From a virus, in IMG/VR virus record IMGVR_UViG_3300037258_000671, positions 1 through 20,625 of that record: DNA of 20,625 nucleotides; one strand, 5' to 3'. Position numbers and translations under genes: made by a program. Shown piece by piece: positions 3,682 through 19,713 of the stretch (positions within the stretch are counted from its first letter, which is position 1; the number at the start of each line of letters is the position of its first letter). The notes beneath the pieces were generated by a model. That model made no database searches, was not told the DNA's origin, and saw only the letters and a list, made by a program, of their open reading frames with translations.

Positions 3682-3882
3682 ATGAACAAGGGCGTCAAAC
3701 AATTTCTGGAGGAAGCGGCCGCCTACGTTAGGTCGTGCGGAGGTCAGGCGGCCGCCGCTAAGAAGCTCAAGATGAGCACCCAGTACCTGTGCGATATCAT
3801 AATGGGCCGACGTCCGATTTCGGAGAAATTTGCGGCGAAGCTTGGTTACGAATGGGTTCTTCAGAAGCGTGATCCAAAATGA
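3682..3882 (+). CDS. Cro/YdaS-like helix-turn-helix regulator
   Basis: This 66-residue protein has a single helix-turn-helix: GGQAAAAKKLKMSTQYLCDI followed by IMGRRPISEKFAAKLGYE. This is the layout of Cro/YdaS-type phage regulators, where the second helix (STQYLCDIIM) reads DNA and 'RPISEKFAAKLGYEW' packs behind it. It is the first gene of the rightward operon and faces the recombination operon, so it probably controls one or both divergent promoters through the repeats just upstream. No Shine-Dalgarno sequence is visible, consistent with a leaderless message. Its stop overlaps the methyltransferase start. Confidence 0.8.
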   Translation: MNKGVKQFLEEAAAYVRSCGGQAAAAKKLKMSTQYLCDIIMGRRPISEKFAAKLGYEWVLQKRDPK

Positions 3883-4439: not shown

Positions 4440-4521
4440 CTCTGTCGCCAACCTTGCCGGCGCCATCCGCGCCATCGCTATCTTCACGCTTTTAGCCGTT
4501 CTCGTGCTTCTGACAGCATGA
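4432..4521 (+). CDS. Membrane microprotein (29 aa)
   Basis: The reading MPNSVANLAGAIRAIAIFTL continues LAVLVLLTA and stops. Residues about 10-28 are a single transmembrane helix. Its ATG lies inside the end of the methyltransferase gene (8-base overlap) and its TGA overlaps the next ATG as ATGA, so it is precisely fitted into the operon. That fit is the main evidence that it is translated. Function unknown. Confidence 0.5.
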   Translation: MPNSVANLAGAIRAIAIFTLLAVLVLLTA

Positions 4522-5030
4522 CGCTGCCAGAGGTTCTCCTCGTACTTGTCGCCGTCTATCACATGGTTTTCGCTCCGCAGCCAAAATTAGGTCCGAGGCC
4601 CAAGAAGCACAGGCACCCTCTCAATATCCGCGGCAGTCTTCCGCGCCGGGCGCTTCATCTCCGATACAGGACGCCGTCTCAAGAGCAACGGGATCGCGCG
4701 CACCGGTTTCGAACGCAGAATATTGAGCAGACTCGGTTCGCACAGCCGACACTCGCGCTTGTTGCCGCACTGACAAGCCTCTGCATCCAATTCAGGCAGG
4801 AAGAAATAATCTGGTACGACGGCGATAAGTTTGTGATCGTGGACTTCTGGTTGCCGAACGTGAGAAGAGGAATTGAACAGGACGGTTCGCAGCACCGGCT
4901 CCAACAGCGCTACGACATGCAAAAAGACGAGATGATATTCCATGTGACCGGATTTAGGATATTCCGGAAGGAGAATGCTTGGTTCCTCCGTCCGAACCTC
5001 ACCGAACGCTTAATCGAGATACTGCAATGA
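4518..5030 (+). CDS. Vsr/DUF559-like nuclease domain protein with hydrophobic N-terminus
   Basis: This 170-residue protein starts with a hydrophobic segment (residues 3-19, LPEVLLVLVAVYHMVFA) and a basic, proline-rich linker. From about residue 75 it has a DUF559/Vsr-like PD-(D/E)XK fold: LALVAALTSLCIQFRQEEII, VIVDFWLP (106-113) with the likely catalytic Asp109, GIEQDGSQH (118-126), YDMQKDEMI and GFRIFR (145-150). DUF559 proteins are related to the very-short-patch-repair nicking enzyme. The position after a DNA methyltransferase could mean a restriction or mismatch-repair pair, but DUF559 proteins also occur alone. The membrane-like N-terminus is unusual for a DNA enzyme. Confidence 0.65.
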   Translation: MTLPEVLLVLVAVYHMVFAPQPKLGPRPKKHRHPLNIRGSLPRRALHLRYRTPSQEQRDRAHRFRTQNIEQTRFAQPTLALVAALTSLCIQFRQEEIIWYDGDKFVIVDFWLPNVRRGIEQDGSQHRLQQRYDMQKDEMIFHVTGFRIFRKENAWFLRPNLTERLIEILQ

Positions 5031-7061: not shown

Positions 7062-7090
7062 GGCGCGCGGAGACTCCGCGCGCCTTTTTT
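7062..7090 (+). terminator. Strong intrinsic terminator of the rightward early operon
   Basis: A perfect 10-bp GC-rich stem (GGCGCGCGGA / TCCGCGCGCC) with a three-base loop GAC is followed by six T. It lies 75 bases after the cysteine peptidase-like gene. A weaker stem (GGCCCG at 7023-7028 with CGGGCC at 7043-7048) precedes it. The gene on the minus strand ends at 7110, so it could also use the stem, but no U run directly follows on that strand. Confidence 0.92.
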
Positions 7091-8770: not shown

Positions 8771-9184
8771 ATGTATACAGAAAATCAGTTCGCGGAATTT
8801 CCTCACCTGAGGCTATGGGAGGAATTGTATGGCGATGGATGGCGCACCGATATTGGCTACGGACCGGCTAAATATCAGTCCAAGGTTCCAAAATCATCTG
8901 GGATATATCTGTTCTCCCTCATCAAAACTCGGTGGAGCGATCATCCATTACCTGATGGAAGGGTCGCATATGTAGGGAAGTCCCTTAATCTATTTCGTCG
9001 ACACACCGGACATGAAGTCCGGCCAATTATTCGAGGAGACGTCGGCTCAGACTTTGATATCGATTTCTGGTTTAAGCGGCTGGCACCGGAGGAAATAAGC
9101 TCGGCCGAGGTATGGTGCATAAAAAAGTACGATCCTCTTTACAATATTATCCATCGGGTGAGGGGTATTCTCGCTCATGGATAG
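8771..9184 (+). CDS. GIY-YIG domain endonuclease-like protein
   Basis: This 137-residue protein has the GIY-YIG core: SGIYLFSLI (residues 43-51, GIY at 44-46), RVAYVGKSLNLFRRH (64-78) with YVG at 67-69 for the second signature and the catalytic-type arginine at 76-77, then EISSAEVWCIKKYDPLYNII with the metal-binding Glu113 and Asn125. Such domains cut or nick DNA and occur in homing enzymes, UvrC and small phage nucleases. No DNA-recognition domain follows, so it may be a compact phage nuclease rather than a full homing enzyme. It overlaps the DUF1376 gene by 8 bases. Base composition looks more AT-rich than the neighbouring genes. Its start site lies in a hairpin. Confidence 0.75.
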   Translation: MYTENQFAEFPHLRLWEELYGDGWRTDIGYGPAKYQSKVPKSSGIYLFSLIKTRWSDHPLPDGRVAYVGKSLNLFRRHTGHEVRPIIRGDVGSDFDIDFWFKRLAPEEISSAEVWCIKKYDPLYNIIHRVRGILAHG

Positions 9185-9707
9185 ACTTTTCCGGATCGAC
9201 TTTTACCCGCAAGACTGGCTTGTAAAAACTGGCGGTCTGACCCCTCAACAGTGTGGCGTGTATATCCAGATTATCGCGTTGATCTATGCTACCCGCGGAC
9301 CAGTAAAGAACGACCCACATAGGATTGCCGGTCTTTTGAGATGCTCCCCAAGATTAGCTCGATCAATAATTACCCAACTTGAAGGGGACGGCAAAATAGA
9401 GGTTCGCGATGGCTTCATTACAAATTCGAGGTGCGAAATTGAGCTCAACTCGAAGCGAGTTCACCTCGAAAACAGTGCGAAAGGCGGTCGAAAATCATCC
9501 GACAGAAGGACGAAATACAACAATAACAAAGACATGCCTTCAAGTGAAGGCAGTGGACCACAACCAACCTCGTACCCGTCCCCAACAGCGACAGCGAGGT
9601 ATTATAAAAACGGAGGAACGCATGGGAGAGGAAAAACAAGCGGCGAAGTCATTGCCGACTTTATCGACGGGGAGCGCGCTTCAATGCAAGGGCTGGACAC
9701 CAAATGA
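9177..9707 (+). CDS. DUF1376 (YdaU-like) phage replication protein
   Basis: This 176-residue protein opens MDRLFRIDFYPQDWLVKTGG followed by LTPQQCGVYIQIIALIYATR, the hallmark of DUF1376/YdaU proteins. These carry a winged-helix-like N-terminal domain found in phage replication genes (residues 1-90, ending DGFITNSRCEIE). The C-terminal half is polar and low-complexity (RRTKYNNNKDMPSSEGSGPQ), a probable flexible linker. It likely works with the next gene in phage replication initiation. Its last 86 bases overlap the next gene in another frame. Confidence 0.8.
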   Translation: MDRLFRIDFYPQDWLVKTGGLTPQQCGVYIQIIALIYATRGPVKNDPHRIAGLLRCSPRLARSIITQLEGDGKIEVRDGFITNSRCEIELNSKRVHLENSAKGGRKSSDRRTKYNNNKDMPSSEGSGPQPTSYPSPTATARYYKNGGTHGRGKTSGEVIADFIDGERASMQGLDTK

Positions 9708-10972: not shown

Positions 10973-11872
10973 CTATTTTCTGAGCACAATGTCCAGAGAC
11001 TTAAGGACACGTCTCAGGGTTAGTAGGACCGTGATTGATCCCACGAAGACGCAGGCCACGCCAATACTCTCGGTTGTAACTTCTTGCCCGAACAACTTAA
11101 TGTGGCTTACTGCGGTGGGCCCACCAAGAAAAGCGAGCCATATACCAAACACCCCAAAAAGTACACCGGCCAGGGCCCCCAAGATCGAAATAATCACGAG
11201 AGGGGGAGTTGCTGTTTTCACTCCCGACGGAGAAAGCACTATGCGTCTTTCCCGTGTACCAACCCTCCCAGCACTGAGCTCCTCTCTCGCAAATTTTGAC
11301 AGTTGCTTAATCAAGTCCTCTATATTGGAGATGAGCGCAGAATAGGCATCTCGGTATTGCTGAAATACACCAACATCGATCGGCGATCGTGAATCGATAA
11401 TAATCCTCAGATATTTTCCCCTTGCACTGAACGTCTTTCTGAAATCCTGATAACTATCTTCAAACAAATACTCATTTTTGATTGCTCCGAACGCTGTATC
11501 CGCCGCTTTCACTTTTTGCAATATTTCACGCGCGCATCTTTGTACTGTATTCCAAGTAGACGAGGAAGGATCGCCAATGTAACTGTTCATTGCAGGTAAA
11601 AAAGTCCAGTTTTGCCGCCTTGCCACTTCAGTGGAAGAGGTTACCAATTCGCTTAGCGAAACCCGGAGGCTCAAGATCTTGTCTGAATCTAGGGTGAGGT
11701 TGTCGACGCTCTCTAGCCGGAGCTCGTAGCTCAGTTTACTGATGTGATCAGCAAGTTGCAAAAAGCTATTACTAGCATCAACTACCATGGACTCGACGTT
11801 CGGATCGGAGGGCACTCTTTCTATTCCTTCGTGTTGCTTCTTGATGGCAGCCACTCGATTTCGTCGACCCAT
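10973..11872 (-). CDS. Membrane protein with helical cytoplasmic domain, probable accessory (moron-type) gene
   Basis: This 299-residue protein has a soluble, helical, charged N-terminal part of about 220 residues (for instance SFLQLADHISKLSYELRLES and YRDAYSALISNIEDLIKQLS). Two C-terminal transmembrane segments follow at about 224-249 (LVIISILGALAGVLFGVFGI) and 269-286 (SIGVACVFVGSITVLLTL), with a short loop between and a basic end. No family is recognised. The ATG has no ribosome binding site; a GTG at residue 20 has GAAGGA upstream and could be the true start. It is the only long minus-strand gene among rightward genes, and its base composition looks lower in GC, both typical of phage accessory genes. 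Superinfection exclusion or abortive-type defence is possible but unproven. Confidence 0.6.
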   Translation of the reverse strand: MGRRNRVAAIKKQHEGIERVPSDPNVESMVVDASNSFLQLADHISKLSYELRLESVDNLTLDSDKILSLRVSLSELVTSSTEVARRQNWTFLPAMNSYIGDPSSSTWNTVQRCAREILQKVKAADTAFGAIKNEYLFEDSYQDFRKTFSARGKYLRIIIDSRSPIDVGVFQQYRDAYSALISNIEDLIKQLSKFAREELSAGRVGTRERRIVLSPSGVKTATPPLVIISILGALAGVLFGVFGIWLAFLGGPTAVSHIKLFGQEVTTESIGVACVFVGSITVLLTLRRVLKSLDIVLRK

Positions 11873-12043: not shown

Positions 12044-12340
12044 ATGCTCGCTCGCCGGTCTAACCTCCTCCCAGGATCAATAGCGCACGCGGCCCGAGCC
12101 GTTGCGTTGGAGCCACGCCGAACCGAACCGAAAATTTGCGGAATCTGGTATTCGTTTACCAAAGAGGAACGGCACGCTGAAGTCCGGAAGATCTGGTCGG
12201 GAACCGGAACGGTCAGCGATGCGGCCGACCGGCTTGGCTGCACTCCTTCGACGCTTTGCAATATCGCTCAGAAGCTGAAACTGCCACCACGCCGGCATGG
12301 CACGCTCTGGCGCCGCAAGCGCAGTCTGGTACCAGCATGA
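12044..12340 (+). CDS. HTH protein with GcrA-like N-terminal pattern (tentative)
   Basis: The recognisable part is residues about 37-84: YSFTKEERHAEVRKIWSGTG, then TVSDAADRLGCTPSTLCNIA and QKLKLPPR. This follows the order of the GcrA DNA-binding domain ('W..eRv..L..lW.eG.Sa..IA..Lg.vtrnaVigk..rLgL..R'). The N-terminal 36 residues look non-conserved and the ATG lacks a ribosome binding site, so the true start may lie further in. No later ATG is available before the domain. Its stop overlaps the next ATG as ATGA. GcrA acts with sigma70 at methylated GANTC promoters in alphaproteobacteria; sigma-like or generic HTH proteins are alternatives. Confidence 0.45.
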   Translation: MLARRSNLLPGSIAHAARAVALEPRRTEPKICGIWYSFTKEERHAEVRKIWSGTGTVSDAADRLGCTPSTLCNIAQKLKLPPRRHGTLWRRKRSLVPA

Positions 12341-13023
12341 AGCTCAGCGAAGCCCCAGCCTTCATCCGGGAGAAGCGAACTATTCCGGCCCGGCAACCGG
12401 CGCGCGCGGCGCTGAAGACAGCCCGGAAGCGCGGGAAGACGCAAGCGGTGCGCTTTGAGGGCGACACCGGCACGCCGGAGATGAAAAAAGCCCAGAAAGT
12501 CTTGCTGGAAGTACGCGAGCGTAGCTCAACCGGGCATGCCACTTCGATCGGCGCCCGCGTTGAGAGCCAGCTTCCGCTCGATCGCCACAAAAACCGCAAC
12601 GAACTCGACCCCACCAACGCATGGCGCAACCTCATGCTCTGGGAGGCGGCGGAACGGCTGCGCCGCGACTTCGAGGCATCGGGCATGGCGCCGAAGATCT
12701 GCGGCAGCTTTCAACCTCGGGTCACCGGCGGCAAACAAAACTGGGACTCCGATCATCAAGTCGATGCCCGAAAGCGGTATAAAGCCGCCATGAATGGGGT
12801 AGGTCAGACATTGCGCCCCATCTTGTTCTGGACAGCAATTGCGGGCGAGTCGGCCAATGATTGGGCACGGCGAAACGGCATGCTCCCGCAGGCTGGAATT
12901 ACCATACTTCGCATGGCTCTTTCAGAGTTGGCCCATCATTTCGGGATTATCAAATTGCCGGGATATGAGCCGCCTCCAAAGCCCAGCGTTACACGTGAAG
13001 CAATTCGAGAAAATACTAGATAA
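12337..13023 (+). CDS. DUF6456-type protein, candidate late regulator
   Basis: This 228-residue protein starts MKLSEAPAFI at an ATG overlapping the previous stop. The first 85 residues are basic and probably disordered. Residues about 91-203 resemble DUF6456: NAWRNLMLWEAAERLRRDFE, then GSFQPRV and a short glycine/polar linker, then DARKRYKAAMNGVGQTLRPI and GITILRMALSELAHHFG. DUF6456 is an alphaproteobacterial domain of unknown function, usually joined to DNA-binding segments. The gene is the largest between the replication genes and the late promoter/terminator pair, which is the place of Q-type antiterminators in lambdoid phages. An antitermination role is inferred from position only. Confidence 0.65.
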   Translation: MKLSEAPAFIREKRTIPARQPARAALKTARKRGKTQAVRFEGDTGTPEMKKAQKVLLEVRERSSTGHATSIGARVESQLPLDRHKNRNELDPTNAWRNLMLWEAAERLRRDFEASGMAPKICGSFQPRVTGGKQNWDSDHQVDARKRYKAAMNGVGQTLRPILFWTAIAGESANDWARRNGMLPQAGITILRMALSELAHHFGIIKLPGYEPPPKPSVTREAIRENTR

Positions 13024-13640: not shown

Positions 13641-13858
13641 GGGCAGAATATCGCAGGCTCATAGATCGGCCGGTGAAGATTGGACGGCAAGCCCGGCGGC
13701 GTCTACGCGCAGCAAACCGAGAAGCGCAGCGACTGGTCATGATGAAACTGATACGGAATGCCAAGATCGTCCCGAGAGATGACGGGCTTGGCTTCGATCT
13801 TCTGTGCAAACTTTATGAGCCAATCCACTACGTAAGCGTTATGGTGACCGTTGATTAG
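13637..13858 (+). CDS. Small basic phage protein (73 aa)
   Basis: The ATG overlaps the XRE gene stop as ATGA. The protein begins MRAEYRRLIDRPVKIGRQAR with a strongly arginine-rich helix (residues 5-35) and ends in a short strand-rich tail (YEPIHYVSVMVTVD). Very basic small proteins at this place could bind RNA or DNA, but no motif is recognised. It ends 17 bases before the late promoter. Confidence 0.58.
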   Translation: MRAEYRRLIDRPVKIGRQARRRLRAANREAQRLVMMKLIRNAKIVPRDDGLGFDLLCKLYEPIHYVSVMVTVD

Positions 13859-13875: not shown

Positions 13876-13905
13876 TTGACGCAGCCTCACGCTCTGATGT
13901 ATAAA
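13876..13905 (+). promoter_or_regulatory. Candidate late promoter
   Basis: TTGACG at 13876-13881 and TATAAA at 13900-13905 with an 18-base spacer form the best sigma70-type promoter in the window (five of six consensus bases in each box). Transcription would start near 13912 and meet the terminator at 13931-13970 after about 20 bases. It is the last promoter-like sequence seen before the packaging and head genes. Confidence 0.65.
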
Positions 13906-13930
13906 TTCCATAAGCTCGATAAATATCTCC

Positions 13931-13970
13931 GCCGCTCGCCGCAGTAAATAACTCGGTTGGCGGCTTTTTT
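13931..13970 (+). terminator. Intrinsic terminator directly behind the late promoter
   Basis: GCCGCTCGCCG (13931-13941) pairs with CGGTTGGCGGC (13954-13964) with one mismatch and two G-U pairs, a loop of 12 bases and a run of six T (13965-13970). It would end both the small-gene transcript and a roughly 60-base RNA from the promoter at 13876. The packaging genes start right after it. Confidence 0.8.
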
Positions 13971-13998: not shown

Positions 13999-14289
13999 AT
14001 GAGAGTTTCCATCCCCCGCATCTCATCAGTCAAGCTGAAGAACGGAGCAAAGCTTCACATCCTTCGGAATACCGCGGCTGAAGATTGCCGTCACGGCTTT
14101 ACCAAGGATTGCCAACACATTTTGAAAGCGAGAGGCCAGAATATGGCCGGTTTCGCAATCGTAGCATGGGCCGTTGACGGCAGCGTATCGACCGCGCTGC
14201 GAATCGCAGACAGCCGGCAGGTAGGCACCATGATGGCCCCCGATTTCGTTAAGACCGCGCTCATCGATTACATCGCTTCGGAGCCGTAA
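13999..14289 (+). CDS. Small phage protein (96 aa), first gene after the late terminator
   Basis: The start MRVSIPRISS is the first ATG after the terminator; no clear ribosome binding site is visible. The centre (NMAGFAIVAWAVDGSVSTAL followed by RIADSRQVGTMMAPDFVKTA) alternates strands and a helix. Small proteins with 'GF.iV.W..dGs..ta.r' in this place are common before terminase genes of alphaproteobacterial phages, with unknown function. It abuts the next gene (TAA directly followed by ATG). Confidence 0.6.
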   Translation: MRVSIPRISSVKLKNGAKLHILRNTAAEDCRHGFTKDCQHILKARGQNMAGFAIVAWAVDGSVSTALRIADSRQVGTMMAPDFVKTALIDYIASEP

Positions 14290-14489: not shown

Positions 14490-14816
14490 ATGAGCTTTCA
14501 AAAAGGCATATCAGGCAATCCAGGCGGCAAGAAAAAGGGCCGCCCGTGGCGAGACGCCATCGAACGCGCGCTCAAACGCCGTATTGCAGAGAACGATCTA
14601 CAAGGCATCGACAAGCTTGCTGATGCCTTGATCGATAAGGGCATCGCCGGCGATGTGATCGCGATCCGCGAAATCGGAGATCGGCTTGAAGGCAAGCCAG
14701 CGCAAGCCGTCGAACACAGCGGCATGATCGCAACCACACACGAAGAGCTCCTGAAACAACTCGATAGCGCGGATGACACCGACGGAGAGGTCGATACGGC
14801 TCCGGCTGAGGGATAG
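14490..14816 (+). CDS. DUF5681 protein, probable terminase small subunit
   Basis: This 108-residue protein begins MSFQKGISGNPGGKKKGRPW, the DUF5681 signature 'F.kGqSGNP.Grp'. A helical middle follows (GIDKLADALIDKGIAGDVIA, IREIGDRLEGKPAQAVEH), with an acidic tail. DUF5681 genes commonly precede large terminases, where they are thought to serve as the small, DNA-recognising subunit. The start is set by the family's usual opening; it lacks a good ribosome binding site, and a TTG at 14448 would add 14 unconserved residues. Its 3' end overlaps the large terminase by 44 bases. Confidence 0.75.
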   Translation: MSFQKGISGNPGGKKKGRPWRDAIERALKRRIAENDLQGIDKLADALIDKGIAGDVIAIREIGDRLEGKPAQAVEHSGMIATTHEELLKQLDSADDTDGEVDTAPAEG

Positions 14817-16206
14817 TTTTCCGTACTATGCTCCGCGATGCCTAAAGATTCGGACGAAGAACGGCAGCATTGCACCGTTCCGGCTTAATCGGCCGCAGCT
14901 CTATTTGCACGAAATGCTCGAACGTCAACGCGCTGCAACCGGTAAGGTTCGCGCGCTGGTTTTAAAGGGTCGGCAGCAAGGCGTATCCAGTTACACTGAG
15001 GGCCGTTTCTTCTGGCGTGTTACGCATCGCCAAGGGACAAGAGCATTTATCCTCACCCATTTGGACGACGCAACGAACAACCTGTTCGGGATGGCGAAGC
15101 GGTTTTACGAGCATTGCCCGGAGGTGGTGAGACCATCTCTGGCCGCGTCAAACGCGAAAGAACTGATATTCGACCAGCTTGATAGCGGCTACAAAGTCAG
15201 CACGGCTGGGAGCAAGGGAACCGGACGAAGCGATACTATCCAGCTTTTCCACGGCTCAGAGGCGGCCTACTGGCCTAACGCTGAAACCCATGTGGCCGGC
15301 GCGCTGCAAGCGGTGCCGGATGAGCCTGACACTGAAGTAATCCTTGAAAGCACCTCGGCTGGTCGCCAAGGTCTCTTCTACGAACGCTGCGCCGCCGCGA
15401 TGCGAGGTGAGGGCGAATACATCCTCGTCTTCATCCCGTGGTTTTGGCAACGGGAATACCGGAAAGCGGCGCCGGAGGGTTTTGAGCTCACTTCGGACGA
15501 GCTGGCCTACCAAGCCGCATATGGGCTCGACCCAATGCAGCTGGCGTGGCGCCGGGCCAAGATCGTCGAACTGAACGGCGTCCACAATTTCAGGCGCGAA
15601 TATCCCGCAACTGCGGAAGAAGCCTTCTCGGCCGAAGTGCCCGGCGCGCTGTGGCGGCGTGAGCAGATCGACAATCTGCGGGTCCTTGGGGGCATCCCGG
15701 AGCTCAGGCGCATCGTGGTGGCCGTCGATCCCTCGGGGGGCGACAGGGCGCGCAATGACGAAATCGGGCTCGTGGTCGTCGGCATGGACGCCCAGAAGCA
15801 TGGTTTCGTGCTCGCCGACCTTTCGGGCCGCTACAGCCCGGAGACCTGGGGCAGCAAAGCCGTTGCCCTCTATCGCCAGTTTAAGGCTGACAGGATCGTG
15901 GCCGAGGCCAACTTCGGCGGCCAGATGGTCGAAAGCACCATCCGGGTCGTCGGGCCGAGCGTGCCCGTCAAGCTCGTCCATGCAAGCCGGGGGAAGCAGG
16001 CGCGGGCCGAGCCCGTCGCGGCGCTCTACGAAACGGGCCGGATGCACCACTGCGGGACCTTCATCGGTCTCGAAGACGAGATGGTTACCTGGGTGCCGCT
16101 GACGTCGACGGACAGCCCGAACCGGGTCGATGCCCTGGTCTGGGCGGCAACCGAGCTTCTGATTGACGGTCCCGGAACTGCCGCGGTTTCCGCTTTGAGG
16201 ATCTGA
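14773..16206 (+). CDS. terL: Terminase large subunit
   Basis: This 477-residue packaging motor starts MTPTERSIRL and has the usual two domains. The ATPase part has a Walker A-like loop KGRQQGVSS (65-73), an acidic Walker B-like segment IQLFHGSEAAYW (156-167) and the coupling motif LESTSAG (191-197). The nuclease part has acidic residues D319 in VVAVDPSGGDRARNDE, E378 in IVAEANFGGQM and D453 in SPNRVDALVWA. It translocates DNA into proheads and cuts concatemers. The Walker A lacks the GK(S/T) lysine at its end, common in terminases where the lysine moves to the loop start (here K65). The part after about 15,640 appears richer in GC than the start. It overlaps portal by one base (TGATG). Confidence 0.93.
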   Translation: MTPTERSIRLRLRDSFPYYAPRCLKIRTKNGSIAPFRLNRPQLYLHEMLERQRAATGKVRALVLKGRQQGVSSYTEGRFFWRVTHRQGTRAFILTHLDDATNNLFGMAKRFYEHCPEVVRPSLAASNAKELIFDQLDSGYKVSTAGSKGTGRSDTIQLFHGSEAAYWPNAETHVAGALQAVPDEPDTEVILESTSAGRQGLFYERCAAAMRGEGEYILVFIPWFWQREYRKAAPEGFELTSDELAYQAAYGLDPMQLAWRRAKIVELNGVHNFRREYPATAEEAFSAEVPGALWRREQIDNLRVLGGIPELRRIVVAVDPSGGDRARNDEIGLVVVGMDAQKHGFVLADLSGRYSPETWGSKAVALYRQFKADRIVAEANFGGQMVESTIRVVGPSVPVKLVHASRGKQARAEPVAALYETGRMHHCGTFIGLEDEMVTWVPLTSTDSPNRVDALVWAATELLIDGPGTAAVSALRI

Positions 16207-17594
16207 TGACCGACGCCGTCCGCAAAACATCCGCAGCCGTCGATGAGATGGCTGAGGACTGGACGCTCATCGATACCCTGATGGGGGGCACCAAGGCCAT
16301 GAGAAGGGCAGGGAAGCAATATCTCCCACAATGGCCCGCCGAGGACGCGCAAAGTTACAAGGAGCGGCTAGCGACAGCGACGTTGTTCCCTGCCTATGCC
16401 AGGACGGTCTCGGTGCTGACCGGCAAGCCGTTTTCCAAGCCGATCAAAATCGGTGAGGACGTGCCGCCCCGCATCAAGGAATGGATGGAAGACGTCGATC
16501 TGGAAGGTCGAAATCTCCACGCATTCGCGGCCGAGGTATGCGCGGAGGGCCTGAGCCACGGTCTTTGCGGTATTCTGGTCGATTGCCCGCCCAATCCGAG
16601 CGCCAAAACGGTCGCCGATGAGCGTGCTGCCGGCGTCCGACCCTACTTCGTGCACATCCGCCACGGTCAGATCCTTGGCTGGAAGACCGAAAAGATTAAA
16701 GGCGGCCTGAAGCTGGTCCAGCTTCGGTTGCTGGAAAGCGTTGAATTGCCGGATGGCGAGTTCGCCACGAAATTCGTTGAGCAAGTCCGCGTTCTGGAAC
16801 CCGGGAAATGGACGGTCTACCGCAAGACCAAAGTCGAAAATGCCCCCGAGACATGGTCCATCTTTGAGCAGGGGCCTACGACAATTCCGATCATTCCGTT
16901 CGTGCCGATCTATGGCTTTCGCAAGGAATTCATGGTCGGCGTGGCGCCGATGCTTGAGCTGGCGCACGCCAACGTCGAGCACTGGCAAAGCAAGAGCGAT
17001 CAGCAGACTATCCTGCACGTGGCCCGTGTGCCGGTGCTGTTCACCAAGGACATTGGCGCCGACACCGCAATCACAGTTGGCTCAGGCACGTTCATCCGCG
17101 CCACCGGCGAACACGCCGACGCGAAGTATGTTGAGCATTCGGGCAAGGCAATCGAAGCCGGCCGTATTTCGATCCTCGATCTCGAGGACCGCATGCGCCA
17201 GATCGGCGCCGAGCTTTTGGTAATCAAACCGGGCAATATCACTGAAGCGCAGACGCTGGCGGACAACGAGCCAGGGATGTGCGACCTGCAGCGCATCATG
17301 GAGTCGCTCGAGGACGGGCTCGATCAGGCCCTTGATCTGATGGGGCAGTGGGTTGGTGAAAAGATCTCTGGTCACGTCACGGTCTACAAGGATTTCGGCG
17401 CGGCGACGCTGGCCGAAGCCTCCGCCGAATTGCTCTACAAGATGAGATCGTCAGGTTCGCTGAGTCTTGAAACGCTGCTGAGCGAATGCAAACGCCGCGG
17501 CATCCTGAGCCCTGATCTTGATCTCGATAACGAAATTCAACGCGCCAAAGCAGATGCGCCTGTGGAGACAACGCAGGTCAATGTGAGGCCGTAG
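16206..17594 (+). CDS. Portal protein (DUF4055)
   Basis: This 462-residue protein carries the DUF4055 opening: MGGTKAMRRAGKQYLPQWPA followed by YKERLATATLFPAYARTVSV and LTGKPFSKP, typical of DUF4055 portals. The centre (FMVGVAPMLELAHANVEHWQ, SKSDQQTILHVARVPVLFT) and the C-terminal helices (LLYKMRSSGSLSLETLLSEC, RRGILSPDLD) complete the family pattern. Twelve copies would form the ring at one capsid vertex through which terminase drives DNA. The ATG shares a base with the terminase stop, so the two are translationally coupled. Confidence 0.9.
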   Translation: MTDAVRKTSAAVDEMAEDWTLIDTLMGGTKAMRRAGKQYLPQWPAEDAQSYKERLATATLFPAYARTVSVLTGKPFSKPIKIGEDVPPRIKEWMEDVDLEGRNLHAFAAEVCAEGLSHGLCGILVDCPPNPSAKTVADERAAGVRPYFVHIRHGQILGWKTEKIKGGLKLVQLRLLESVELPDGEFATKFVEQVRVLEPGKWTVYRKTKVENAPETWSIFEQGPTTIPIIPFVPIYGFRKEFMVGVAPMLELAHANVEHWQSKSDQQTILHVARVPVLFTKDIGADTAITVGSGTFIRATGEHADAKYVEHSGKAIEAGRISILDLEDRMRQIGAELLVIKPGNITEAQTLADNEPGMCDLQRIMESLEDGLDQALDLMGQWVGEKISGHVTVYKDFGAATLAEASAELLYKMRSSGSLSLETLLSECKRRGILSPDLDLDNEIQRAKADAPVETTQVNVRP

Positions 17595-17681: not shown

Positions 17682-18458
17682 ATGAAACTCAAACTTGATG
17701 ATAAGGGCGCCGTCGTCGTTCAAGACGACAAACCCGTCTATGTTGCTGACGATGGCAAGGAAATAGCCTTCGACTATCCAGCCACTCTCGCGACGATCGC
17801 CCGCCTCAACGGCGAGGCCAAAGGGCACCGGGAACGCGCCGAGGCGGCCGAGGTAAAGCTCACCGCCTTCGATGGCATCGAGGACCCCGAGAAGGCCCGC
17901 AAGGCCATTGATATCGTCAAAAACCTCGACGACAAGAAATTGATCGACGCGGGTGAGGTCGACAGAGTCAAACTTGAGGCTAAGGCGGCGTTCGACGAAC
18001 AATTGAAGGCCGTCGAGAAGAAATACCAACCCGTGACGGCAGAGCGCGACCAGTACAGAGATTCGCTCTTCAAAGAAATCGTTGGCGGGGCATTCAGCCG
18101 ATCGAAATTCATTACCGAAAAGCTGGCGATACCGTTTGATCTGGCCCAGGCCAAATTCGGCAATTCGTTCATCATCGAAGATGGCAAGGTCATCGGCAAG
18201 AACTCAGCCGGGGAACGAATCTTCAGTCGCGTCAAACCAGGAGAAATCGCCGATTTTGACGAAGCGCTTGAAACCCTCGTCGAGGACTATCCCTACCGGG
18301 ACAGCATCCTCAAAGGGTCAGGTGCTTCGGGAAGCGGCGCCGGCGGTTCCACGCGGATCGTTGGCGGCAAGAAGACGATGACGCGCGCGCAATTTGAAGG
18401 CCTTGGTGCCGCTGAAAAAATGGCGGCTGTCAAGGACGTCGCCATCGTCGACGAATAG
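17682..18458 (+). CDS. Capsid scaffolding protein-like
   Basis: This 258-residue protein is acidic and helical, and is located between portal and coat, the place of scaffold genes. It starts MKLKLDDKGAVVVQDDKPVY, followed by a long coiled-coil-like stretch (about residues 38-130: RLNGEAKGHRERAEAAEVKL ... LEAKAAFDEQLKAVEKKYQP). A compact C-terminal part follows with SGASGSGAGGSTRI as a glycine linker and a final helical piece (MTRAQFEGLGAAEKMAAV). It resembles scaffold proteins of P22-type phages in architecture and the DUF6651 family in the N-terminal half. GGAG lies about 18 bases upstream, so a better site is not obvious. Confidence 0.72.
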   Translation: MKLKLDDKGAVVVQDDKPVYVADDGKEIAFDYPATLATIARLNGEAKGHRERAEAAEVKLTAFDGIEDPEKARKAIDIVKNLDDKKLIDAGEVDRVKLEAKAAFDEQLKAVEKKYQPVTAERDQYRDSLFKEIVGGAFSRSKFITEKLAIPFDLAQAKFGNSFIIEDGKVIGKNSAGERIFSRVKPGEIADFDEALETLVEDYPYRDSILKGSGASGSGAGGSTRIVGGKKTMTRAQFEGLGAAEKMAAVKDVAIVDE

Positions 18459-18500: not shown

Positions 18501-18507
18501 AACCAAG

Positions 18508-18531
18508 CCCCGCATCCTGCGGGGTTTTTTT
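18508..18531 (+). terminator. Intrinsic terminator between scaffold and coat genes
   Basis: A perfect 7-bp stem CCCCGCA / TGCGGGG with loop TCC is followed by seven T. Its last T is directly followed by ATGGAGG, which holds the coat ribosome binding site. No promoter fits between the terminator and the coat start at 18544, so coat expression needs read-through or antitermination. Confidence 0.85.
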
Positions 18532-18543
18532 ATGGAGGAAGAC

Positions 18544-19713
18544 TTGAGTAACACCTTAACAAACCTATTTCCGACGATCTACGAAGCGCTGGACATCGTC
18601 TCGCGCGAGATGATCGGGTTCATCCCGGCCGTTGCTCGAAACACCTCTGCGGAACGAGCATCTCTTAACCAGTCGATCCTGGTCCCCGTCACGCAGGCTC
18701 AGGCTGCGCAAGACATCACCCCGGCCGTGATCCCACCCGATACCGGTGATCAGACCGTCGGCAGCGTGTCGATGACGATCAGCAAGTCCAAGTTCGTTCC
18801 GATCCGTTGGAACGGCGAACAGCAGCTCGGTATGAAGACGGCCGGGACATACGATGCAGTCCTGCGCCAGCAGTTCGCGCAAGGCTTCCGTACCCTTGCC
18901 AACCTGATCGAAACGGATTTGTTCACCGCTGCCTATCAGGGTGCCTCGCGCGCTACGGGTACGGCTGGCACCGCGCCGTTCGGCACCGCAGGCGACATGT
19001 CAGGGTCCGCGCTCGCGCGTCAGATTCTCGATGACAACGGCTGCCCGCAAAGTGACCTGCATCTGGTTCTCGGGTCGGCTGCAGTCGCCAATCTGCGCGG
19101 CAAGCAAACGATCCTGTTGAAAGCGAACGAAATGGGGTCAGCCGAATTCAGAAGGACCGGCCAAATCTCCGAAGTTCCACTCGATGGTTTCATGCTGCAC
19201 AACAGCAACTCCATCAAGCAGGTCACGAAGGGGACAGGCGCAAGCTATGTCACGTCGGGCTCCACGGCTCCGGGCGTCGAGTCCATTGCACTCGTCACCG
19301 GCACTGGCACCGTCCTGGCCGGCGATGTTGTGACTTTCGCAGCCGATGCCAATAACAACTACGTCGTGAACACAGGCGTTGCTGCTGCCGGTACGATCGC
19401 GCTCGGCACACCGGGCGCCAGGGTTACGATCGGCACTGCGAATGCCCTGACGATCGGCAGTTCCTACACCCCGAACGTGGCACTCCATCGCGACGCCGTC
19501 CAGCTCATCACTCGCGCTCCTGCGATGCCGATGGACGAAAGCGGAAGGCCTGCTGACTCGGCGGAAGACAGCATGCTCATCACCGACCCGATTTCGGGCA
19601 TCACGTTCGAGGTTTCGATGTACCGCCAGTTCAGGCAGCTTGCGTTTTTTGTGAGCGTTGCTTGGGGAACTGCCTGTATTAAAAACGATAACGTAGCAAT
19701 ACTTATTGGCTAA
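18544..19713 (+). CDS. Major capsid protein, P22 coat type
   Basis: This 389-residue protein is read from TTG at 18544 because GGAGG stands five bases before it and the product then opens MSNTLTNLFPTIYEALDIVS, matching the usual 'ManTLtnl.p.iyeal..vsre' start of P22-type coats. An ATG four codons earlier lies inside the ribosome binding site behind the terminator. Family features continue with REMIGFIPAVARNTSAERAS, the strand-rich region with FVPIRWNGEQQ, a beta domain with GDVVTFAADANNNYVVNTGV, and the ending MYRQFRQLAFFVSVAWGTAC. Many copies form the icosahedral shell. The last 25 codons are more AT-rich than the rest, next to an inserted endonuclease gene. Confidence 0.9.
   Translation: MSNTLTNLFPTIYEALDIVSREMIGFIPAVARNTSAERASLNQSILVPVTQAQAAQDITPAVIPPDTGDQTVGSVSMTISKSKFVPIRWNGEQQLGMKTAGTYDAVLRQQFAQGFRTLANLIETDLFTAAYQGASRATGTAGTAPFGTAGDMSGSALARQILDDNGCPQSDLHLVLGSAAVANLRGKQTILLKANEMGSAEFRRTGQISEVPLDGFMLHNSNSIKQVTKGTGASYVTSGSTAPGVESIALVTGTGTVLAGDVVTFAADANNNYVVNTGVAAAGTIALGTPGARVTIGTANALTIGSSYTPNVALHRDAVQLITRAPAMPMDESGRPADSAEDSMLITDPISGITFEVSMYRQFRQLAFFVSVAWGTACIKNDNVAILIG

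Follow-up and report, generated by a model that had tools for sequence, protein, structure and literature searches.

A sigma70-type promoter followed almost at once by an intrinsic terminator lies directly before the packaging and head genes of a tailed phage, and we read it as probably a lambda/21-type late promoter at which read-through would depend on a GafZ-like phage antiterminator of the DUF6456 family. The window, i.e., the whole stretch of DNA analyzed, is an entire IMG/VR virus record of 20,625 bases and represents a fragment of the phage. Judging from sequence, the element is very likely a late promoter whose promoter-proximal terminator is overcome by processive antitermination. The DUF6456 protein is the likely antiterminator, by analogy with characterized relatives, and the combined reading is held with slightly less confidence than either part. 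Computed support comes from the signals of promoter and terminator, from the conservation of the pair, from conserved leader elements, from a co-resident DUF6456 gene, and from the lack of a known Q among the scanned open reading frames (ORFs); from these we infer the start site, termination, pausing, DNA binding, and read-through activity.

Promoter and Terminator Upstream of the Late Genes

The element and its parts are as follows.

13876–13905, + strand: sigma70-type core promoter TTGACG-18-TATAAA, from sequence and promoter scan
13882–13899, + strand: promoter spacer CAGCCTCACGCTCTGATG, a candidate site for antiterminator binding (QBE/ZBE position), from conservation in three phages
13911–13916, + strand: TAAGCT, a -10-like hexamer of the initial transcribed region and candidate element for sigma-dependent pausing, from a five-phage alignment
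13912–13970, + strand: predicted short leader RNA of about 59 nt, from the promoter and terminator positions
13924–13927, + strand: conserved TATC (TRTC), about +13 to +16, 19–20 nt past the -10 in all five phages
13931–13970, + strand: intrinsic terminator (hairpin 13931–13964, T6 13965–13970), -20 kcal/mol, with counterparts in L003, L006, L016, and L017

The promoter comprises a -35 hexamer TTGACG (13876–13881), an 18-nt spacer, and a -10 hexamer TATAAA (13900–13905), and shares with the terminator a 140-bp gap between a stop codon at 13858 and an ATG at 13999. The initial annotation had called it the best sigma70 promoter in the window, and it is indeed the sole promoter-like site on either strand that scores at least 10/12 with 16–18-nt spacing. 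An 11/12 site at 11296 exists but requires a 19-nt spacer. One promoter scan misses the TATAAA site because it accepts only -10 hexamers that end in T.

The hairpin starts 25 nt past the -10, and the leader folds at -20 kcal/mol (z -2.9). The T6 terminator had likewise been pointed out from the letters alone, with correct coordinates and distances, and so had the position of the pair ahead of packaging and head genes: terminase, portal, scaffold, and major head genes follow. Transcription would start at about 13912 and end at about 13970, which gives a predicted RNA of 59 nt, in agreement with the roughly 60 bases first proposed. Rfam matched no family within the element.

Conservation of the Unit in Related Phages

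A search with the large terminase subunit (TerL) recovered about a dozen close relatives among viral contigs, plus two prophage-like planctomycete loci. The promoter–terminator unit also stands upstream of the terminase gene in four diverged relatives (L003, L006, L016, and L017), at 555–1406 bases from terL and with neighboring genes that are not the same. Their promoters read TTGAC-16/18- with a -10 of TATAAA, TATGTT, TATACA/TATATA, or CATAAT; the TTGAC -35 and 18-nt spacing are retained in L003, L006, and L017, while L016 is ambiguous (16 or 18). Each terminator is a GC-rich hairpin with a T-run, and the predicted RNAs are 45–60 nt long. The L003 promoter overlaps the 3′ end of the DUF6456 gene. 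Two tRNA genes (L003, 3703–3870) lie directly past the late terminator of that phage, within the presumed read-through transcript, and were all that an Rfam scan of the relatives found.

We compared the element with chance expectation in 2000 dinucleotide shuffles of the window. Strict pairs, defined as a promoter scoring 10/12 or more and, within the next 20–90 nt, a terminator at least as stable as -15 kcal/mol, occurred on average 0.0015 times per shuffled window, and looser cut-offs gave 0.03–0.26. Among 62 representative terminase loci (one per near-identical DNA cluster), pairs on the coding strand are enriched in the 2 kb or less upstream of terL, with 8 in 105 kb vs. 10 in 942 kb elsewhere (P 1.7e-4). 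In 2.2 Mb searched on both strands, the composite TTGAC...TRTC pattern with its conserved spacing has just three other sites. On sequence grounds, conservation in relatives, beyond the shuffle statistics, is the decisive support for the reality of the element. Neither the region nor the DUF6456 protein had a match among phage GenBank entries.

The planctomycete loci L080 and L081 (L005, L009) are prophage-like regions of Limnoglobus roseus and Zavarzinella formosa with a terminase 81% identical to that of the window, which suggests, from sequence, a wide host exchange of the head module. DUF6456 is not found in these relatives, and L009/L081 has a weaker promoter-like site with a terminator. 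Separately, four relatives (L006 ~4500–4545, L007 ~3790–3850, L016 ~2850–2895, and L017 ~4456–4503) have a motif like GACAGCTGGAAAGACAGC, a short hairpin, directly 5′ of their first late gene; it was not seen in the window and is perhaps a packaging site or an RNA element.

Conserved Leader and Spacer Elements

We aligned the leaders of the window, L003, L006, L016, and L017, anchored at the -10. In the initial transcribed regions, 8 of 31 columns are invariant, compared to a mean of 1.4 in shuffles, and none of 5000 shuffles reached 8. The conserved positions include a hexamer YANGCT, 5–6 nt past the -10 (TAAGCT, CATGCT, CATTCT, CACGAT, and TACGCT), whose A2 and T6 are invariant at the sequence level in all five phages, as well as the TRTC and an invariant G at a fixed place. 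As a control, the 40 nt upstream of the -35 contain 3 invariant columns vs. 1.0 in shuffles, so a slight residual relatedness is present there.

The promoter spacer has nine invariant columns among the window, L006, and L017 (shuffle mean 2.8, P below 1/5000), a similarity not common to all five phages. An inverted repeat is notable only in L017, as a 13-bp near-palindrome; a clear spacer palindrome like that of the Caulobacter promoter was not found in the window. Scanning with the promoter-spacer pattern matched 15 contigs, and a promoter and terminator follow only in two already known phages.

A DUF6456 Protein as the Candidate Antiterminator

Two coupled genes upstream of the element are relevant to its regulation.

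12044–12340, + strand: small helix-turn-helix (HTH) protein gene, coupled to the DUF6456 gene; weak HTH_17 match
12337–13023, + strand: DUF6456 protein of 228 aa, candidate processive antiterminator (GafZ-like); PF20057, E 2e-15

The initial annotation predicted a phage antiterminator, and the prediction gains comparative support from a conserved upstream gene of the DUF6456 (GafA/GafZ) family, which is present in all five phages with the layout. The window protein matches PF20057 with 57 bits against a cut-off of 26. The listed ORF spans 12256–13023, and we placed the start at 12337 because of the relatives' proteins and an ATGA overlap with the preceding HTH gene, an overlap also seen in L094. 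Orthologues occur in L003, L006, L007, L016, and L017; the more distant ones, in L007 (34% identical) and L004 (21%), are from phages without the full layout. Wider searching for DUF6456 phages added none.

Outside these phages, a profile match was obtained to an alphaproteobacterial DUF6456 protein (E 6e-8), and Caulobacter gave the only DUF6456 match among 14 control genomes. A Methylobacterium match has no recognizable phage genes among its neighbors. GafA, which directly activates the gene transfer agent (GTA) of Rhodobacter, has BLAST matches and homologues annotated as DUF6456 (PMC9638019). The C. crescentus protein GafZ, a homologue of the C-terminal part of GafA, acts as a processive anti-terminator: it loads between the -35 and -10, associates with RNA polymerase and Nus factors, and enables polymerase to pass terminators (PMC11150451).

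The AlphaFold2 model of the DUF6456 domain has a mean pLDDT of 78. The full-length model superimposes on sigma region 4 over 61 residues (rmsd 1.5, TM 0.84 by target). Compared with phage 21 Q, the domain model gives Z 5.8 over 101–103 residues (rmsd 4.6–5.0), a score below 8 that is too low to stand alone and may reflect a common helical arrangement alone. A sequence search of solved structures gave no match for the protein, and a PDB fold search returned nothing at E 0.001 or better; published work found no structural likeness between predicted GafZ and known antiterminators (PMC11150451).

RDJL Phi 1 has been reported as a GafA-carrying phage (PMC6363796), and its protein at 22.8–23.7 kb matches PF20057. 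A consensus scan found no promoter–terminator pair before the late genes of RDJL Phi 1 or of phage R4C, both of which encode GafA-like proteins, but such a scan may miss promoters of this kind, because the Caulobacter GTA promoter has a degenerate -35 (PMC11150451).

Late Genes and a Second Terminator

Genes and signals downstream of the element are listed in order.

13999–14289, + strand: first late gene; 55–60% identical orthologues in L002, L003, and L007
14290–14463, + strand: small late gene; orthologues in L006, L017, and L003
14490–14816, + strand: probable terminase small subunit (DUF5681), from PF18932 (E 2e-11) and position
14773–16206, + strand: terminase large subunit; PHROG 979 (2e-24) and Terminase_6C
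16206–17594, + strand: portal protein; PHROG 145 (8.5e-125)
17682–18458, + strand: probable head scaffolding protein; PHROG 784 (unknown function, 3e-95) and PHROG 206 (scaffold, 2e-16)
18504–18531, + strand: second intrinsic terminator, within the late operon between the scaffold and capsid genes; -16 kcal/mol hairpin and T7
18532–19713, + strand: major head protein; PHROG 283 (1.7e-84)

The ATG at 13999 is supported by three relatives that align from residue 1; an orthologue search for this gene in viral contigs confirmed none. Terminators similar to the second one occur at the same place before the capsid gene in L005, L009, and L014. Since it intervenes, expression of the capsid gene from the late promoter would need a modified polymerase, and the GTA cluster likewise contains terminators to be bypassed for downstream expression. 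The scaffold–capsid gap of L003, L004, L006, L007, and L017 contains a conserved CCTGGATGGGG(A/G)..CGGAG element with no Rfam match. Midway through the early region, the window also has a very strong intrinsic terminator (7062–7090, + strand; 10-bp stem, T6).

Proposed Switch and Alternative Explanations

Early in infection, RNA polymerase would start near 13912 and halt near 13970, releasing an RNA of about 59 nt. As the DUF6456 protein (12337–13023) accumulates, it would bind the promoter between the -35 and -10 and join RNA polymerase; the probable place is a pause that TAAGCT, the -10-like hexamer at 13911–13916, would induce. The polymerase carrying it would be termination-resistant, and the terminase, portal, scaffold, and capsid genes could then be transcribed through the terminators at 13931–13970 and 18504–18531.

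The alternative that fares best keeps this switch and assigns it to another antiterminator, e.g., the HTH protein (12044–12340), a DUF1376 protein (9177–9707), a gene outside the fragment, or a host factor, and we regard it as unlikely. The window is only a 20.6-kb fragment, and three other terminase groups (L024, L053, and L060) have the same layout beside other genes, with no DUF6456 nearby; the layout alone therefore cannot identify the protein. The cis logic is thus general, and the protein assignment draws on synteny and the GafZ precedent. Against another antiterminator, DUF6456 is the conserved upstream gene in five of five phages, whereas the HTH gene is less conserved. The DUF1376 protein was rejected as a candidate: it does not track the layout, is absent from the 62-kb L003 record and the L016 record, and matches replication proteins. 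As a separate observation, L024–L027, L053, and L060 have a terminase gene preceded by a strong promoter with a terminator right behind it, and no antiterminator was recognized in them, which makes them candidates for more antiterminator families.

It is improbable that the short transcript is itself a regulatory small RNA and that the late genes use another promoter. Such an RNA would account for the leader being conserved outside the hairpin and for its having its own promoter and terminator, but the conserved part falls at the -10-like and pause positions, and packaging genes follow directly wherever the element occurs. The scans used detected no promoter of at least 9/12 between 13970 and terL, and the lack of an Rfam match also counts against this explanation. 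Still less probable is a cis-acting attenuator or riboswitch, whereby the leader RNA would choose between terminator and antiterminator folds. Attenuators usually have this layout, with a terminator near the promoter inside a leader, but only 19 nt precede the hairpin here, the terminator fold dominates the predicted ensemble, and neither an alternative fold nor an Rfam family was seen for the leader. Coincidence, with the terminator closing the upstream operon and the promoter being a chance match, is hardly credible: loose pairs reach 0.26 per shuffled window, but strict pairs are far rarer (0.0015), the unit is kept in four relatives despite differing genes just upstream, and the promoter of L003 reaches into the 3′ end of the DUF6456 gene.

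Comparison With Known Systems

A late promoter with immediate terminator under a GafZ-like antiterminator closely resembles pR′-tR′-Q of lambda and phage 21, as the initial annotation had suggested for lambda. The shared features are a sigma70 promoter before the late genes, an immediate intrinsic terminator, a -10-like element in the initial transcribed region, a short leader RNA, and an upstream regulator gene. Q depends on a -10-like sequence early in the transcribed region as well as on a site that lies between the -35 and -10 (PMC6606751). The likeness to the lambda layout holds for the arrangement, which recurs in four relatives and includes the -10-like element and a further terminator, but the likely antiterminator is not a Q-family protein. 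The ORFs scanned in this fragmentary record matched no Pfam antitermination family and no known Q family, and the candidate is instead DUF6456. The terminator of the window also differs in being only about 60 nt from the start.

The Caulobacter GafZ promoter and the RcGTA GafA system (PMC11150451, PMC9638019) share with the window a DUF6456 regulator, phage-type structural genes, and terminators that need bypass; their site between the -35 and -10 corresponds in position to the candidate spacer element of the window. GafZ binds the GTA promoter only and requires a palindrome between the -35 and -10 (PMC11150451). Unlike these systems, the window belongs to a free phage rather than a GTA, its -35 is near-consensus rather than degenerate, and a single intrinsic terminator sits directly in the leader. 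A GafY-like (DnaA domain IV-like) partner was not recognized; the coupled gene matches generic HTH families only. The switch would therefore work like lambda Q/pR′/tR′ while being filed with neither the Q systems, since no Q-family protein was found, nor the GafYZ systems, since no GafY partner was recognized. AlpA promoters of Pseudomonas aeruginosa (PMC7969949) also combine a promoter-embedded binding element, a downstream intrinsic terminator, and bypass by a processive antiterminator, but that protein is unrelated by annotation and governs a cell-lysis program rather than packaging genes.

These comparisons bear on whether the anti-termination of alphaproteobacterial GTA regulators originated in an ancestral phage. 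The proposed switch suggests that GTAs took over their regulation from the control of phage late genes. We propose tentatively, with slightly less than even confidence, that DUF6456 is a phage late-gene antiterminator family of the Q type, pause-loaded via an in-promoter site, and that GafA/GafZ were inherited from such a phage system. If so, this phage group would retain a switch of ancestral type, in which the leader holds a simple intrinsic terminator, and Q-type logic would extend to proteins whose family name denotes unknown function. A phage that combines a GTA regulator family, a compact switch, and a conserved pause-like leader is a small system, open to experiment, for studying how DUF6456 proteins load onto RNA polymerase.
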